Positions 504 to 10,019 of a DNA stretch of 43,327 bases are shown one piece after another; the stretch's first letter is position 1, and each line of letters begins with the position of its first letter. A program made the position numbers and the translations under genes. The notes beneath the pieces were generated by a model. It saw only the letters and a program-made list of their open reading frames with translations, searched no databases and had not been told where the DNA came from. This DNA is from Candidatus Poribacteria bacterium (GTDB lineage: Bacteria; Poribacteria; WGA-4E; B28-G17): assembly GCA_021162805.1 (NCBI GenBank), contig JAGGXZ010000222.1, forward strand, positions 1 through 43,327, read 5' to 3'.

Positions 504-1448
504 ATGCGTGAGGCAGAACTGGTCGAACTCATCACGGAGAGGGTTTTAGAGGAGCTTTGTATCTCCTGCGGCTTTTGTGCGACAAGATCATGTTCAACCG
601 TCCGCGCTTGTGATCTTGTCGCACAGAGGCATAAGGTTCCAGTCGGCATCTCCGCCCGCCATATTCACATCACACCCGAACATCTGGAAGTTCTCTTCGG
701 AGGAGGAGCGCAGCTGACACATCATGTCGATCTCTACCAGCCAGGGAATTTCGCAGCGAAAGAAACCGTCACCATAGTCGGGCCGAGGGGGGCGATAGAA
801 AGGGTTCGGATCCTAGGTCCCCTGAGGGATTACACGCAGGTGGAGCTCGCCCGAACGGATGCCGTGAGGCTTGGGCTTGATCCGCCCGTGAGGGATTCGG
901 GCGATTTGGATGATGCCGCCCCGATCACTATCGTCGGACCCAAAGGATCGATCTTCCTCGAACACGGCGCCATCATAGCTGCCAGGCATATCCATATGCC
1001 CGTTGAAGATGCCGAGAGAATGGGACTCACCTCTCAGGATCTCGTCTCCGTCAGGGTCCCCGGCGAGAGAGGACTGACATTCGAGAACGTCAGGCTCAAG
1101 ATAGGCGAAAATGTCTTGCTCCAGCTCCACCTCGACACCGACGAGGGGAACGCAGCGGGGCTGCAGGGAGGCGAGGCCGTGGAGATAATCCTCCCGGATG
1201 GAAGCATATTCTCACCGTCCGAGGAGGTAGCGGTGGAGGAGAGGGAGCCGATTGTGGAAACGGTCGAGTTCAAACCGGAAGGTCAACGGGGCAAACCGGT
1301 CGTGACAGCCTCCTTTATAGAGTCGCTATCCCCACAGGTTAAACAGCTCCTGGTTCCAAATCCCGTCATCATCACCCCGTTGGCGAAGGATGCCGCCCGT
1401 GAAAAGGGAATACAGATCGTGACCAAAGAGGGCAGGAGGCTGATCTGA
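504..1448 (+). CDS. pduL: PduL-type phosphate acyltransferase with Cys-rich linker
   Basis: The 314-residue product is a BMC-associated phosphotransacylase, which converts acyl-CoA and phosphate to acyl-phosphate and CoA, normally inside the shell. Zinc-site motifs are visible: SARHIHI (His53, His55), AARHIHMP (His162, His164) and LHLDTDEGNAAG (His209). The first 18 residues look like an amphipathic encapsulation helix. Residues 19-36 form an unusual linker with five cysteines (19, 22, 25, 30, 36), partly encoded by a 15-bp perfect palindrome. The C-terminal ~55 residues extend past the catalytic repeats and include an ITPLAKDAAREKGI segment of a kind that, from memory, recurs in other BMC proteins. 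It sits between two shell genes, with a 1-nt gap to the next. Function is well supported; the preferred acyl group (acetyl or propionyl) cannot be read from the sequence. Confidence 0.92.
   Translation: MREAELVELITERVLEELCISCGFCATRSCSTVRACDLVAQRHKVPVGISARHIHITPEHLEVLFGGGAQLTHHVDLYQPGNFAAKETVTIVGPRGAIERVRILGPLRDYTQVELARTDAVRLGLDPPVRDSGDLDDAAPITIVGPKGSIFLEHGAIIAARHIHMPVEDAERMGLTSQDLVSVRVPGERGLTFENVRLKIGENVLLQLHLDTDEGNAAGLQGGEAVEIILPDGSIFSPSEEVAVEEREPIVETVEFKPEGQRGKPVVTASFIESLSPQVKQLLVPNPVIITPLAKDAAREKGIQIVTKEGRRLI
576..625. repeat. 15-bp perfect palindrome inside the pduL linker
   Basis: TGTGCGACAAGATCA (576-590) and TGATCTTGTCGCACA (611-625) are exact reverse complements with a 20-nt loop. 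The element lies entirely in frame inside the linker between the N-terminal helix and the first PduL catalytic motif, and its codons supply three of the five linker cysteines (25, 30 and 36). As RNA it would form a strong hairpin in the coding region. Confidence 0.85.
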
Positions 1449-1759: not shown

Positions 1760-3076
1760 GTGCCGTCGCTGGTCGATCTGGTAAGGGAAGCAGGCGTCGT
1801 TGGAGCCGGTGGCGCCGGATTTCCCACCCATGTCAAGATAGATGCTAAGGTCGATACCGTTATAGCCAATGGGTCGGAGTGTGAGCCACTGCTGCACGGG
1901 GACCAACACCTCATGAAAGCCGAACCTCAGAGGATAATCGAGGGACTCCAGGCTGTTGTGCGCCACACCGGCGCCGAGCGCGGGATCGTAGGCATCAAGG
2001 CCAAATACGCCGAGGCGAAGACGGCTCTCAAGGAGGCAATGACCGGATACGAGGGATTGGAAATCTTCGAACTTCAGGATTTCTATCCCGCCGGTGATGA
2101 GTTCTCGCTGGTATATGAGATCACAGGAAGGGTGATACCCGAAGGCGGCATACCGCTTCAAGTGGGAACCTTGGTCAACAACGTCGAAACTCTCTACAAC
2201 ATCGCAAACGCTATCGAGGGAATACCCGTGACACATAAACTCGTCACCGTCACGGGAACCGTTGCAAAACCGCTTACGATGAAACTCCCTGTCGGCATCA
2301 GCTATGCTGAGGCGATAGAGCTGGCGGGAGGAGCGACGGTTGAGAATTACATCCTGCTGGACGGCGGTCCGATGATGGGGAAAGTTGTGGAGGACCCATC
2401 GTCGCCGATCACCAAGACCACAAACGGAGTGCTGCTCCTGCCCAGGGATCACAGATGGGTGCGAAAATTGATAGCGGAAGATCGAACGGCACTTAAGTTC
2501 TCGATGATATGTTGTCACTGCAATATGTGCACCGATATCTGTCCCCGGAATCTGCTCGGACACGAGATATATCCCAGCCGCACGATGCGAGCGATGGCAC
2601 TTTCGAGTATGATCGATATCAGCTCCTACACGAACGCCTTCCTCTGCTCTGAATGTGGGCTGTGCGACTTCATCTGCCCGTTAGATCTCCTCCCACGTGA
2701 GGTGAACGTCATGCTCAAGCGCAGGCTCTCAGAGGCAGGGGTTAAGAACCCTCACCGACGTTCAGAACTCAAGCCTTCGCCTTTCAGGGATTACAGGAAA
2801 GTGCCCACCGGCAGGTTGCTTTTGAGCTTAGGATTGAAGGAGTTCGACTCTCCAGCTCCGATGGCCGATTTCCAGTATGAACCTGAACATGTCAAAATTC
2901 CGCTCAAGCAACACATCGGAGCACCTGCCATACCTATAGTTCGAGTCGGTCAGAAGGTGAAGTTCGGTCAGCCGATAGGCGAGATCCCTGAGGGCGACCT
3001 GGGAGCGAGGATTCATGCTTCTATCTCCGGAACGGTGGTCTCGGTGGATGAAAGATTTATCTCGATAAAACGTTGA
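1760..3076 (+). CDS. PduS/RnfC-like flavo-iron-sulfur oxidoreductase
   Basis: The 438-residue protein resembles PduS (cobalamin reductase of propanediol BMCs) and the RnfC subunit family. The N-terminal GAGGAGFPTH motif and NGSECEP match the flavin/NADH-binding Rnf-type domain. An SLBB-like region follows, then two four-cysteine clusters of ferredoxin type (CCHCNMCTDICP near residues 251-262 and CSECGLCDFICP near 295-306). The C-terminus has a barrel-sandwich segment (VGQKVKFGQPIGEIPEG...). The start is GTG at 1760 with a purine-rich AGGGGGGTT just upstream. In known systems such proteins pass electrons from NADH to cobalamin or across the BMC shell. Here it sits between the Fe-S shell protein and the Hdr genes, so an electron-transfer role is likely. 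Whether cobalamin is involved cannot be decided, because no B12 enzyme is in the BMC region of the window. Confidence 0.87.
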   Translation: MPSLVDLVREAGVVGAGGAGFPTHVKIDAKVDTVIANGSECEPLLHGDQHLMKAEPQRIIEGLQAVVRHTGAERGIVGIKAKYAEAKTALKEAMTGYEGLEIFELQDFYPAGDEFSLVYEITGRVIPEGGIPLQVGTLVNNVETLYNIANAIEGIPVTHKLVTVTGTVAKPLTMKLPVGISYAEAIELAGGATVENYILLDGGPMMGKVVEDPSSPITKTTNGVLLLPRDHRWVRKLIAEDRTALKFSMICCHCNMCTDICPRNLLGHEIYPSRTMRAMALSSMIDISSYTNAFLCSECGLCDFICPLDLLPREVNVMLKRRLSEAGVKNPHRRSELKPSPFRDYRKVPTGRLLLSLGLKEFDSPAPMADFQYEPEHVKIPLKQHIGAPAIPIVRVGQKVKFGQPIGEIPEGDLGARIHASISGTVVSVDERFISIKR

Positions 3077-4129: not shown

Positions 4130-4189
4130 ATTTAAGGATTCAAAACCAATCGGACCATCCGACAGGTGTATTTCAGGGAGAATCGAGAA

Positions 4190-4717
4190 ATGGAGGATAT
4201 CCTCAGGCGCATAAATGAGGAAACGGGACAGGATCTGGCGCTCTGCTTCCAGTGCGGCAAATGCTCATCAGGGTGTCCCGTGGCCGACTCGGCCGACTAT
4301 ACCGTCAGCCAGATCGTCAGACTCTTACAACTGGGTAAAACGGACAAGGTCCTCTTCTCATCGATGATCTGGATCTGCACAGGCTGTGAGACCTGCGGGG
4401 CAAGATGCCCGAACGACATAAACATGGCCCCCGTGATGGATTTCTGCAAACAGCTCGCGCTCGAAAAGGAGATCGAGATACCCGAAAGGAGGATCGAAAC
4501 CTTCCATAGAACCTTCCTTAAAGAGCTCAGGAGAAAGGGGAGGATGCATGAGGTAGGGCTGATCATGGGATACAAGCTGAGGACGAAGGACCTGTTCTCG
4601 GACTTGATGCTGGGAGCGGGGATGTTCCTCAGGGGGAAGCTTAAACTCTTGCCGTCCAGGGTTAAGGGAAAGGACTACAGGGAGCTCATCGAGTCGGTGA
4701 AAGGAGAGAAGGGATGA
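4190..4717 (+). CDS. hdrC: HdrC-like heterodisulfide reductase Fe-S subunit
   Basis: The product (175 residues from the ATG at 4190) has two ferredoxin-type clusters, CFQCGKCSSGCPV and CTGCETCGARCPND, spaced as in HdrC. Basic helices then lead into the HdrB gene. The ATG at 4190 is chosen over an upstream in-frame GTG at 4166 because AGGGAG at 4175-4180 is suitably spaced and the family begins near this residue. HdrC relays electrons between the flavin subunit HdrA and the catalytic HdrB. Its stop overlaps the hdrB start (ATG at 4714), implying translational coupling. No transmembrane segment is seen, so the complex is expected to be cytosolic. Confidence 0.9.
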   Translation: MEDILRRINEETGQDLALCFQCGKCSSGCPVADSADYTVSQIVRLLQLGKTDKVLFSSMIWICTGCETCGARCPNDINMAPVMDFCKQLALEKEIEIPERRIETFHRTFLKELRRKGRMHEVGLIMGYKLRTKDLFSDLMLGAGMFLRGKLKLLPSRVKGKDYRELIESVKGEKG

Positions 4718-5565
4718 GCGAGGGGAAACTGAGATTCGCCTATTTCCCCGGATGCTCACTTGAATCCTCGGCCAGGGAGTTCGATGAATCGACGAGGGAG
4801 ATATGTAAGGCGCTCGGCGTGGAGCTGGTTGAGATTCCGGACTGGAACTGTTGCGGCGCCACATCCGCTCACAGCCTCGATTCCACCCTCGCCCTCGCCC
4901 TGCCCGCCCGGAATCTCAGGATAGCCGATCGGATGGGACTTGATATGCTGGCGCCATGCGCCGCCTGTTTCAATAGGGAAAAGATGACCGCCGTGCAGTT
5001 AGCTGAGGACGAGTCGCTCCGGGCGAAGTTCCTCGACGGGAAACCGCTCTCGATCGGCGTGCGACATCTTATTGAAGTGCTGGCAAGCCCTCCTCTTCTG
5101 GAGAGGATCAAACGATCGGTTCAAAAGAAGCTCGGATTGAAGGTGGTCTGCTATTACGGATGCCTGCTCGTGAGACCCCCGGACGTTGTGAGCTTCGACG
5201 ACGTCGAAAACCCAAAGATGATGGACGATATAGTGCGCGCCATCGGCTGTGAAGCCCTGGATTGGTCGTTCAAAACGGACTGTTGTGGAGCGGGGCTGTC
5301 GATAGCCAGAACCGATCTGGTCCTGAAGCTGGTCGCCAGATTGATCGAGATGGCCCATGAGGCCGGAGCGGATTGTATCTCAGTGGCTTGTCCGATGTGT
5401 CACGCCAACCTGGATGGCAGACAAAAAGCCGCCGTCAAGCGGTTCGGCATCCAGACCATGCCTGTTCTTTACATCACCGAGCTCGTGGGAATGGCTCTCG
5501 GACTGGATCCTGAGAGATGGTTCAAAAGACATATGATTCCGGTCAGACTCCAGGGGAAAAGATGA
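4714..5565 (+). CDS. hdrB: HdrB-like catalytic subunit (two CCG domains)
   Basis: The 283-residue protein has two cysteine-rich CCG domains typical of HdrB. The first runs from YFPGCSLES through WNCCGATSAHS to CAACFNR. The second has CYYGCLLVRP, DCCGAGLSIARTD and CPMCHANLD. In methanogens these domains bind the non-cubane Fe-S clusters that reduce the CoM-S-S-CoB heterodisulfide. In bacteria the physiological acceptor is usually unknown. All signature cysteines appear to be present, so it is probably active. It overlaps hdrC at its start and the HdrA fusion at its end (ATGA at 5562-5565). Confidence 0.9.
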   Translation: MSEGKLRFAYFPGCSLESSAREFDESTREICKALGVELVEIPDWNCCGATSAHSLDSTLALALPARNLRIADRMGLDMLAPCAACFNREKMTAVQLAEDESLRAKFLDGKPLSIGVRHLIEVLASPPLLERIKRSVQKKLGLKVVCYYGCLLVRPPDVVSFDDVENPKMMDDIVRAIGCEALDWSFKTDCCGAGLSIARTDLVLKLVARLIEMAHEAGADCISVACPMCHANLDGRQKAAVKRFGIQTMPVLYITELVGMALGLDPERWFKRHMIPVRLQGKR

Positions 5566-8500
5566 TCGGCTCGGTTATGGTCATAGGCGGCGGGATAGCC
5601 GGGATGCAGGCCGCTATGGACCTTTCAGAGCAGGGGTATTTCGTATATCTCGTTGAAAGGGAAAGCGCCATCGGCGGCATGATGGCGGGACTGGATAAGA
5701 CCTTTCCGACCAACGACTGCTCCATGTGCATCATGTCCCCCCGACTCATAGATCTCGCCCGAAACGAAAACGTTCAGATCATCACAAACGCCGATCTATT
5801 ATCGGTCGAAGGTAAGCCCGGCCGGTTCAGCGTCAAGCTGCTCCAAAGACCAAGGTTCGTCGATCTCGAGAGATGTAACGCCTGTGGCAAGTGCTTGGAG
5901 GTCTGTCCCGTCGAAGTTCCGGACGAGTTCAACCTCGGTATAAACCGGCGCAGGGCGATCTACAAACGTTACCCTCAAGCCGTTCCGGCGGCCTTCGCCA
6001 TCAGCAAGGAGGATGTTCCCCGGTGCAGATCGGCCTGTCCCATCCACACCAACGTTCAAGGCTACATCGCCATGATCGCCCAGGGTAAGTTCGAGGAGGC
6101 CTACAGGATCAACAAGGAGGTTAATCCCTTCCCCTCCATCTGTGGCAGGGTGTGTCATCATCCCTGTGAGGAGGCGTGTCTGCGGAACAGGATAGACGAG
6201 GCGGTGCCGATTCAGTTTCTCAAGAGGTTTGTGACGGACTGGGTTTTCAAGAACGGACTTGCCGAGCGGCTTGAGCCGATGCCCGAACGTCCCAATTCCT
6301 CCGGCAGGAGTGTGGCGATCGTTGGATCGGGCCCGGCGGGACTATCCGCCGCCAACGACCTCGCGATGCTGGGCCACTCCGTCACGGTCTTCGAGGCGCT
6401 CCCGGTGGCAGGTGGGATGTTGGCCGTGGGAATACCGGAGTATCGGCTGCCAAAGGAGATACTGAACAAGGAGATAGAGCTCATAGCCCGCAAAGGGGTG
6501 GAGATAAAGCTCAATACGCGGGTCGGCCAGGACATACCGCTTCGTCGGCTCGTGGAGGAGTATGATGCCGTATTTATCGCCGCCGGCGCCCACCATGGCA
6601 GGAAATTGGGCGTCGAGGGCGAGAACCTTCGAAATGTGATAGAGGCTGTGGACTTTTTAAGACAGGTCAACCTTAACCGATTCCCCCGCGCGTTGATCCG
6701 CAATGCTAGGGTCGCCGTGATCGGCGGGGGGAACGTCGCGATGGACGCCGCCCGAACTTCGATTCGCCTTGGCGCTAAAGAGGTGACGGTTTACTACCGT
6801 CGATCGCGCCGCGAGATGCCGGCGGATGAATGGGAGCTGAGGGAAACCGAGGAGGAGGGCATCAGGTTTGAATTCCTCACGGCGCCGCTGAAGTTCATCG
6901 GCCGATACGGCAAGGTCCGGGAGATGGAATGCATCAGGATGGAGCTGGGAGAACCGGATGAGAGCGGCAGGCGCCGTCCCGTTCCCATCCCCGGATCGGA
7001 ATACAGGGTCGAGGCGGATGTGGTGATCCTCGCCATAGGACAGCGGCCCGATGGCGAGTTTATGTTGGAGATACCCGATATCAGGCTCTCCAGAAACGGG
7101 TTCATAGATGTCGATCCGAAAACCCTGTGGACAGGGGTGCCGAAGCTGTTCGCCGGAGGCGACATCGTCACCGGTCCGGCCACCGTGACGGATGCCATCG
7201 CCCAGGGCAAGAGGGCTGCCAGGGCCATTCACAGATATCTCAACGGCGAGGAGATGGGAGAGCCGTTTCAATGGGAGCTCAAAACCAGGGACCTGCCGCC
7301 GATAGAGGAGGAGGTTCTGCCTCCCACCGAACCGTACGAATCCCCTAGAGCCGATATCCCGAGGCTTTCACCCGCCGACAGGATCAGATCCTTCGATGAG
7401 GTCCAGCTCGGATTCGACGAGCGGACCGCCATAGAACAGGCCAAAAGATGCCTCAACTGCGGCATCTGCTCCGAGTGCATGCAATGCGTCCAAGTATGTC
7501 AAGCCGAGGCGATAGAACACGATCAGACCCCACGGACCCTCGACCTGGAGGTGGGGGCGATTATACTCGCGCCAGGATACTCCACCTTCGACGCTAAACT
7601 CCGCGGCGAATACGGATATGGCAGATATCCCAACGTGATAACCTCCGCCGAGTTCGAAAGATATCTCAGCGCGTCGGGCCCCACAAACGGACATGTGATC
7701 AGACCCGGTGACGGGAGGGAGCCTAAGAAGATCGCCTTCATCCAGTGCGTCGGCTCGCGTGATGTGACCGGACGTGGTAATCCCTACTGCTCCTCCGTCT
7801 GCTGCATGTACGCGACCAAACAGGCGATCATCGCAAGGGAACACCTCCCCTCCCTGGAACCGACCATCTTCTTCATAGACATGCGCGCACATGGCAAAGG
7901 ATATGAGAGATACTATCGCAGGGCGCAGGAGGAGTTCGGCGTCAGATTCATCAGGGGGATGATCTCATCGGTCAAGGAGCTCAAACGCACGGGAAACCTG
8001 CTGATACGATATGTGGATGATTCGGGCGAGGTGATCGAAGAGGAGTTCGATATGGTCGTCCTATCGGTGGGATTGGAACCTCCAAAGGGGATCTCCGATC
8101 TGGCTGAAAAGCTAGGAGTTGATCTTAACGAGTTCGGATTCATAAGCGTAGATCGATACGCGCCGACTGAGACGAGTCGGCAGGGGATCTTCGCCTGCGG
8201 GGCGGCGGTTGAACCTCAGGACATACCCTCCAGCGTGGTTCAGGCGGGAGCAGCGGCGTGTATGGCCGCCCGGATGCTTTCGGAAAGCCGTGGAACGATG
8301 ATCAGAAGGCGGGAGTATCCGCCTGAAAGGGATATCCGGGGCGAGCCGCCCAGGATCGGCGTCTTCGTCTGTCACTGTGGCAACAACATCGCCGGCGTGG
8401 TGGACGTCAAGGAGGTGGCGGAGCATGCCTCGAAACTCGAAAACGTGGTCCTGGCGGAAACCCTCCTCTACGCCTGCTCGCCGGACGGGTTGAAACGCAT

Positions 8501-10019
8501 CCGCCAGGCCGTCGAGGAGATGAACCTCACGAGGGTGGTGGTCGCCTCCTGCACCCCCAGGACGCATGAGCCGGTCTTCCAGAACGCCATCCGTGAGGCG
8601 GGGCTGAACAGATATCTATTTGAAATGGCGAACATACGGGATCAATGTTCATGGCCGCACATGCACGAACCCGATAGGGCGACGGAAAAGGCCAAGGAGT
8701 TGGTGGCGGCGGCCGTCGCTAAGGCTCGGCTGCTGGAACCCTTGGAGGAGATCAAACTGCCCGTCACGAAATCGGCGCTGGTGATAGGAGGCGGTCCCGC
8801 CGGTATGACCGCCGCCCTGGCGTTGGCCGATCAGGGATTCCCCGTCCATCTGGTGGAACGGAAGGACGAGCTGGGAGGCAATCTCAGACATCTCAGATAC
8901 CTCCTCGATGATACCGATCCGCATCACCTGCTGGAGGATATGATCGACAGGGTCAAGAGCCATCCGTTGATCTCCCTGCACATGGGATGTGAGCTGATCG
9001 ACGCCGAGGGGTTCGTCGGTAACTTCAAAAGCCGAATCGCCCCCAGGGAAAATCCGGACGAGCCGATCGAGATAAGCCACGGAGTGACGATAATCGCCAC
9101 GGGAGCCGAGGAATACAGGCCGAATGAATATCTCTACGGTGAGTCGGAGAGGGTCATGACCCAGAGGGAGTTCGAGGAGAGGCTGGCCTCGGGCCGGATG
9201 GAGAGGCCGAAAAGGCCGGTGGTCATGATCCAGTGTGTCGGGTGTAGGAACGAGGAGAGGAACTACTGCAGCCGGATATGCTGCTCGGTGGCGATCAAAA
9301 ACGCCCTTAAGCTCACAAAGATGTATCCCGACCTCCCGGTCTACATACTCTATAAGGACGTCCGAACCTTCGGATTCCGGGAGGAGTTCTACAGGGAGGC
9401 CCGACGGCGAGGCGTGATCTTCCTCAGATACGATGATGAACACAAGCCCTCCTTACGGGACGAGGGCGATATCATCAGGGTGAGCTATCGTGATCTGAAC
9501 TCCGGGGTCGAGGGTGAGATCGAGGCGAGCTATATCATCCTGAGCGCGGCGGTGGTCAGCGATGGGGAGGCAAAGCGGTTGAGCAAGATCTTCAGCGTGC
9601 CGATAGATGAGGACGGTTTCTTCATGGAGGCACATGTCAAGCTCAAGCCGGTGGAGTTCGCCACTCAGGGCGTATATGTCTGTGGGATGGCCCATTCGCC
9701 GATGTTCCTGGATGAGAGCATGGCACAGGCGATGGCGGCCGCGTCCAGAGCAGCGACCGTTTTGAGCAAGGATGAGCTTCCGGTGGAGAGCATGGTCGCC
9801 GTCGTCAATCCTCTTAAGTGCGTCGGATGTCTGGCATGCGTCAGCGCGTGTCCCTATCAGGTGCCGAAATTCAACGAGGAAAAGAGCGTTGTGGAGATAG
9901 AGCCGGCGGAATGTCACGGATGCGGTGTGTGCGCGGCGGCCTGTTTCGGCAAGGCGATAACGCTGAAGAAGTTCGAGGATGAGCAATTGGCCGAATCGAT
10001 CGACGCATTGCTGTGGTGA
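5562..10019 (+). CDS. hdrA: Giant HdrA-NfnB/GltD-HdrA fusion flavoprotein
   Basis: The ATG at 5562 overlaps the hdrB stop (ATGA) and gives 1485 residues. An in-frame ATG at 5517 would lie within hdrB and is less likely. Visible order: HdrA FAD motif (GGGIAG, ~9), a ferredoxin cluster (CNACGKCLEVCP, ~105), and an inserted NfnB/GltD module with its N-terminal Cys-rich domain (~154-215), FAD motif (VGSGPAGLSAA, ~251) and NADPH-type motif (IGGGNVAMDAA, ~386). HdrA then resumes with a Cys-rich motif near 629 and IQCVGSRD. A second HdrA-like half follows: CHCGNN near 936, FAD motif GGGPAGM near 1074, IQCVGCRN, and two C-terminal 4Fe-4S motifs (~1419-1463). The expected role is to accept NAD(P)H electrons and split or relay them to HdrBC and a ferredoxin-like partner. 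Three flavin sites in one chain fit flavin-based electron bifurcation, but that is inference. Confidence 0.9.
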   Translation: MIGSVMVIGGGIAGMQAAMDLSEQGYFVYLVERESAIGGMMAGLDKTFPTNDCSMCIMSPRLIDLARNENVQIITNADLLSVEGKPGRFSVKLLQRPRFVDLERCNACGKCLEVCPVEVPDEFNLGINRRRAIYKRYPQAVPAAFAISKEDVPRCRSACPIHTNVQGYIAMIAQGKFEEAYRINKEVNPFPSICGRVCHHPCEEACLRNRIDEAVPIQFLKRFVTDWVFKNGLAERLEPMPERPNSSGRSVAIVGSGPAGLSAANDLAMLGHSVTVFEALPVAGGMLAVGIPEYRLPKEILNKEIELIARKGVEIKLNTRVGQDIPLRRLVEEYDAVFIAAGAHHGRKLGVEGENLRNVIEAVDFLRQVNLNRFPRALIRNARVAVIGGGNVAMDAARTSIRLGAKEVTVYYRRSRREMPADEWELRETEEEGIRFEFLTAPLKFIGRYGKVREMECIRMELGEPDESGRRRPVPIPGSEYRVEADVVILAIGQRPDGEFMLEIPDIRLSRNGFIDVDPKTLWTGVPKLFAGGDIVTGPATVTDAIAQGKRAARAIHRYLNGEEMGEPFQWELKTRDLPPIEEEVLPPTEPYESPRADIPRLSPADRIRSFDEVQLGFDERTAIEQAKRCLNCGICSECMQCVQVCQAEAIEHDQTPRTLDLEVGAIILAPGYSTFDAKLRGEYGYGRYPNVITSAEFERYLSASGPTNGHVIRPGDGREPKKIAFIQCVGSRDVTGRGNPYCSSVCCMYATKQAIIAREHLPSLEPTIFFIDMRAHGKGYERYYRRAQEEFGVRFIRGMISSVKELKRTGNLLIRYVDDSGEVIEEEFDMVVLSVGLEPPKGISDLAEKLGVDLNEFGFISVDRYAPTETSRQGIFACGAAVEPQDIPSSVVQAGAAACMAARMLSESRGTMIRRREYPPERDIRGEPPRIGVFVCHCGNNIAGVVDVKEVAEHASKLENVVLAETLLYACSPDGLKRIRQAVEEMNLTRVVVASCTPRTHEPVFQNAIREAGLNRYLFEMANIRDQCSWPHMHEPDRATEKAKELVAAAVAKARLLEPLEEIKLPVTKSALVIGGGPAGMTAALALADQGFPVHLVERKDELGGNLRHLRYLLDDTDPHHLLEDMIDRVKSHPLISLHMGCELIDAEGFVGNFKSRIAPRENPDEPIEISHGVTIIATGAEEYRPNEYLYGESERVMTQREFEERLASGRMERPKRPVVMIQCVGCRNEERNYCSRICCSVAIKNALKLTKMYPDLPVYILYKDVRTFGFREEFYREARRRGVIFLRYDDEHKPSLRDEGDIIRVSYRDLNSGVEGEIEASYIILSAAVVSDGEAKRLSKIFSVPIDEDGFFMEAHVKLKPVEFATQGVYVCGMAHSPMFLDESMAQAMAAASRAATVLSKDELPVESMVAVVNPLKCVGCLACVSACPYQVPKFNEEKSVVEIEPAECHGCGVCAAACFGKAITLKKFEDEQLAESIDALLW

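Follow-up and report, generated by a model that had tools for sequence, protein, structure and literature searches.

The solved structure of a microcompartment-associated PduL binds its two zinc ions through His48, His50, Glu109, His157, His159, and His204 (PMC4784909). As to inverted repeats, homogenization of their arms in coding DNA, by template switching, has been documented in yeast (PMC8604942), and quasipalindrome (QP) mutations are known from E. coli (PMC7202029). Template switching is also known to give rise to RNA hairpins, and has been described in RNA genes (PMC8794818), and mitochondria of the Nematomorpha carry many palindromes in coding sequence, up to 284 bp in length (PMC6649704).

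The locus described here combines a PduL with an unusual linker and an exact inverted repeat in the DNA that encodes part of it. The window, meaning the whole stretch of 43,327 nt that was analyzed, is one complete contig of a 4.35-Mb metagenome-assembled genome (MAG) of Candidatus Poribacteria, estimated as 95% complete. Comparison with relatives indicates that the cysteine motif of the linker and the palindrome are two independent features laid over one another, the motif old and the palindrome new.

PduL and its gene neighborhood

The features of the gene and its product are:

504-1448, + strand: pduL, encoding a phosphate propanoyltransferase of 314 aa that is extended at its C-terminus (Pfam, NCBIfam, and PDB matches)
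504-560, + strand: predicted encapsulation-peptide-like N-terminal helix, residues 3-19 (AlphaFold2 model; homologous N-terminus in Poribacteria PduL)
567-611, + strand: conserved four-Cys linker motif, C22-x2-C25-x4-C30-x5-C36 (73/73 relatives outside family f3, defined below)
1257-1427, + strand: C-terminal extension, matching NCBIfam TIGR02536 positions 161-206 and residues 196-253 of a protein at relative locus L039 (E 4e-9)

Identification as PduL is secure by profile, with matches to the PTAC domain (PF06130; 1.4e-70, residues 46-220, 237 bits against a cut-off of 25), to NCBIfam NF011652 (4.5e-73; 245 against 209), and to PDB entry 5cuo (3.1e-50). All six di-zinc ligands are present, as H53, H55, E114, H162, H164, and H209, at a constant offset of 5 from the solved protein, and they are invariant across 40 aligned PduL sequences. 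The N-terminus has the predicted form of a BMC-type encapsulation helix, with residues 3-19 modeled as helical and a poorly ordered linker after them: AlphaFold2 gives residues 18-32 a pLDDT below 50, and predicts a short helix at 35-41.

At the other end of the protein, the last ~55 residues are homologous to the C-terminus of a TIGR02536-like protein, encoded in relatives by a separate gene directly downstream of pduL. No counterpart to the first ~195 residues of this downstream protein turns up in the window genome; taken with the homology of the tail, this suggests a deletion that fused pduL with its downstream neighbor.

The gene is flanked on one side by a BMC shell gene (PF00936) and on the other by a second BMC-domain gene (1450-1749), beyond which lies a PduS-like gene. 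The 1450-1749 product matches the BMC profile from residue 48 onward, over profile positions 9-57 only, and is possibly a shell protein of the circularly permuted (PduU/EutS-like) kind. Immediately following the shell genes, 1760-3076 encodes a PduS/RnfC-like protein with two Fe-S-type Cys motifs; neither it nor the 1450-1749 gene is found beside pduL at relative loci L039-L041. Further along (4166-10019) are HdrC-, HdrB-, and HdrA-like genes, the last of them for a 1500-aa protein into which a GltD/NfnL-like domain appears to have been inserted, and which seems to have several ferredoxin motifs. Other contigs of the window genome (G000), namely C178, C19, C187, C77, and C149, carry additional genes with a BMC domain as well as three for BMC-P (EutN/CcmL), so that its microcompartment genes seem to be scattered.

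The four-cysteine module across Poribacteria

The linker carries Cys at residues 19, 22, 25, 30, and 36, as the sequence-only reading had it, and the protein has no others. A PduL turned up in 80 of the 83 genomes from the class, a count that includes the window genome. The one other genome examined from the window's family gave no PduL match, and the closest homologue, by best full-length match, is that of genome G005, at 64% protein identity. Cys22, 25, 30, and 36 are invariant in all 73 other Poribacteria PduL sequences outside one family, f3. The spacing in these 73 is C-x2-C-x4-C-x6-C, with x5 in the last interval in G005 and the window, and the consensus can be written C-S-G-C-A-L-R-[TS]-C-x-x-G-x-R-A-C-D (the second position also as x), its Gly, Ala, Arg, and Asp being near-invariant. 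Cys19 is found in the window sequence and in no relative. The six f3 sequences (L090-L095) are missing the first three Cys but keep the last, in the form E-x-x-A-C or similar.

Outside the phylum, the four-Cys motif is absent from PduL of the sampled Planctomycetota, and of one Atribacterota and one Kerfeldbacteria genome. Planctomycetota PduL was considered as an outside source of the motif and rejected, none of those sampled carrying it. In the PduL tree, the f3 sequences form one supported group and all remaining Poribacteria another (support for the latter 92/84); with the two as separate groups, one gain of the motif, or one loss in f3, suffices. Judged from these comparisons, the module is a clade-specific part of the encapsulation-peptide linker, and old within Poribacteria. 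The expectation that ordinary PduL linkers are not Cys-rich thus describes the sampled non-Poribacteria well, but does not apply to Poribacteria, where Cys-rich is the rule.

As to what the module does, the functional evidence is its conservation, which points to strong purifying selection. The earlier suggestion of a metal or Fe-S site gains from this as regards the four Cys invariant in 73/73 sequences outside f3, but loses Cys19, unique to the window. The likeliest role, we infer, would be as a metal-binding (Zn or Fe-S) or redox/disulphide element that orders the cargo tail. It does not have the form of a Fer4 domain (C-x2-C-x2-C-x3-C with a score over the cut-off): matches reach only 14.1-16.9 bits against 21.1. 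Fer4 was rejected as an identification, since the sub-threshold match spans residues 14-26 only and rests on the non-conserved Cys19; three relatives have no match at all. The PDB search returned no match to the Cys peptide, no description of a four-Cys module in Poribacteria PduL was found in the literature, and to our knowledge none has been noted between helix and core in any described PduL.

The module might instead be a disulphide or thiol switch, or purely structural, and not a metal site. That no metal-binding Pfam family was matched in the relatives tested is in its favor, as is the unordered state of the module in the AlphaFold2 model; against it is that the four invariant Cys are accompanied by near-invariant Gly, Ala, Arg, and Asp, a combination characteristic of a compact ligand knuckle. 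We give this reading a substantial chance, somewhat short of even, and it is compatible with the origin of the palindrome proposed below. A more specific proposal can be put forward only tentatively, and is rather doubtful as it stands: that the cargo tail of Poribacteria PduL is a four-Cys metal/Fe-S module, kept in all families but one, and a switch through which metal or redox state controls docking to the shell. If true, such a switched cargo linker would be an encapsulation tag of a previously undescribed type, and metal binding by the module would in itself offer a new means to build or gate one.

The inverted repeat and its origin

The repeat has the following parts:

576-590, + strand: left arm, TGTGCGACAAGATCA, codons 25-29 (C A T R S)
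591-610, + strand: loop between the arms, 20 nt
611-625, + strand: right arm, TGATCTTGTCGCACA, third position of codon 36 through second position of codon 41 (D L V A Q)
571-630, + strand: stem-loop predicted at the RNA level, with 22 pairs when G-U is counted (571-592/609-630)

The two 15-bp arms were confirmed to be exact reverse complements. Outward of them, the DNA repeat extends to 571-630 with 18 of 20 pairs Watson-Crick. At the RNA level, every pair of the 571-592/609-630 stem can form, four of them as G-U, and the minimum free energy for 560-640 is -38.7 kcal/mol, compared to -19.4 +/- 3.1 for shuffled sequences (z = -6.3). Counted from the first base of the pduL start codon, the hairpin starts 67 nt downstream, inside the ORF. 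A terminator was ruled out, there being no T run after the stem.

At the homologous site in relatives the best perfect stem is 4-7 bp, the 15-bp stem being found in the window only, and fold z-scores range from -2.7 to +1.9. Counted from the first conserved Cys, the linker equals that of G005 in length and falls one residue short of most relatives; the codon missing by comparison with these falls in the loop, and G005 lacks it as well. An in-frame palindromic insertion, which the sequence-only reading had considered, for instance a mobile element like those of Rickettsia, would also give an exact inverted repeat within a frame-preserving segment. There is however no extra sequence by comparison with homologues, and a second copy of the 15-mer pair, which that reading had proposed looking for, was not found in the window genome, where several would be expected of such an element; nor do viral contigs contain exact copies of the repeat. 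With relatives sharing the linker and its Cys pattern without the palindrome, insertion is refuted, and we regard the chance of a mobile element as close to nil.

The repeat is locally unusual. It is the sole perfect short-range inverted repeat of at least 13 bp in the window, and the only one (loop up to 80) in coding sequence in a 411-kb sample of the same genome, where the remaining perfect repeats of 13-18 bp are classed as intergenic; these contigs thus show no excess of coding palindromes. In 400 kb from two relatives, one 14-bp case was the only coding palindrome. Among the intergenic perfect inverted repeats of the window genome, two (L139:19288-19343 and L141:7483-7544) have a common sequence, GTCATTTGTAGTCAT, and perhaps belong to a short palindromic repeat dispersed in this genome.

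The palindrome could have come about by chance, through the usual course of point mutation and codon choice. From base composition, ~0.3 perfect 15-bp repeats (loop up to 80) are expected per 4.3-Mb genome, and one such repeat genome-wide is therefore not an absurd outcome. The expectation within the window genes is lower: synonymous resampling (n = 150) gave 0.08 repeats per window at 13 bp, 0.02 at 14 bp, and none at 15 bp or more, which puts it well below 0.02. When only synonymous codons are allowed to vary, about 0.1% of the possible choices (~1 in 1000) yield the perfect 15-bp stem. Chance would moreover need an otherwise unseen Thr27 and three minor codons together, and is on balance unlikely.

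The composition of the left arm points elsewhere. Residue 27 is Leu in 69 of 73 relatives, and Thr in the window alone. The middle base of codon 27 pairs with the first G of the Val39 codon and is thereby forced to be C, so that Leu is not encodable: the probability of a perfect 15-bp stem is zero with Leu27, as compared to 0.001 with the window residues. Codons 27-29 (ACA AGA TCA) are consecutive minor codons, accounting for 12%, 17%, and 12% of the usage within their respective families, while the right-arm residues D-L-V-A-Q fit the family consensus. On average the left arm differs from relatives at 7.3 of 15 nt and the right at 5.7 of 15, despite the left peptide being the more conserved. 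The left arm thus appears derived (Thr27, minor codons) and the right consensus-like, by comparison with a nearest homologue only 64% identical.

We infer a replication template switch, and its direction, from this asymmetry; a switch writing the right arm over the left, within an old four-Cys module, is our best explanation, and a reasonably probable one. The module would have been present beforehand, through one gain in Poribacteria or with later loss in f3, as would a weak inverted repeat. The outer arm bases may have served as seed; the outer five already pair in 9 of 73 relatives, G005 among them. In the lineage of the window genome, replication would then have switched template to the right arm (611-625), overwriting the left (576-590) and making the repeat perfect, with Leu27 changed to Thr and the minor codons brought in. 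Such a rewriting would have been tolerated because the Cys, Ala, Arg, and Ser/Thr needed by the module were retained. The strong RNA hairpin would be a by-product, whose influence on translation would be local and no more than mild.

The hairpin could conceivably be selected in its own right, slowing ribosomes, or stabilizing or processing the mRNA, and so adjusting how much BMC shell protein is made relative to PduL, a tuning role that the sequence-only reading had also suggested. The fold is very stable, the mismatches flanking the perfect core are all G-U so that the RNA stem (22 bp) exceeds the DNA repeat, and BMC shell and pduL genes have been reported as one Poribacteria polycistron (PMC5087111). 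On the other hand, the stem occurs in no other Poribacteria examined, and is consequently not preserved by covariation as in a functional RNA; the hairpin matches no Rfam family; it is not intergenic but inside the ORF, where cleavage would destroy pduL; and the two inner G-U pairs simply result from two TGT Cys codons. A regulatory role is possible but unsupported, and selection on the hairpin seems improbable.

An assembly or library artefact, in the form of a fold-back chimera, also comes to mind for a MAG contig, library preparation being able to generate perfect inverted repeats. In both arms here the reading frame yields conserved residues (C-A-x-R-S/T-C and C-D-x-V-A-Q), something not to be expected of a chimera, and we consider an artefact very unlikely.

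If a template switch is the correct explanation, it is a single event in one genome. The palindrome would then be a candidate example, from bacteria, of a conserved peptide rewritten by template switching, a useful case and no new system, in which a deceptive DNA pattern can be told apart from a real protein signal.

Comparison with known systems

Like the quasipalindrome and template-switch cases already described (PMC8604942, PMC7202029, PMC8794818), this one has an exact inverted repeat in coding sequence, with one arm that matches the reverse complement of the other and seems to differ from relatives in a cluster; unlike them, it is one case in an uncultured bacterium, compared with relatives rather than with an ancestor. 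With the palindromes of Nematomorpha mitochondria (PMC6649704) it has in common that both arms encode conserved residues, but here there is a single 15-bp repeat.

At the protein level, the window PduL resembles 5cuo and other BMC-associated PduL (PMC4784909) in its core, its zinc ligands, and its predicted N-terminal helix, and differs in having the four-Cys module between helix and core and a TIGR02536-like tail at the C-terminus. The shell proteins PduT and GrpU (PMC6325248) are similar in that they are microcompartment proteins with conserved Cys for which Fe-S has been proposed; in those, however, the Cys/Fe-S site is in the pore of the shell protein, whereas the Cys of Poribacteria PduL are in the linker of a cargo enzyme.
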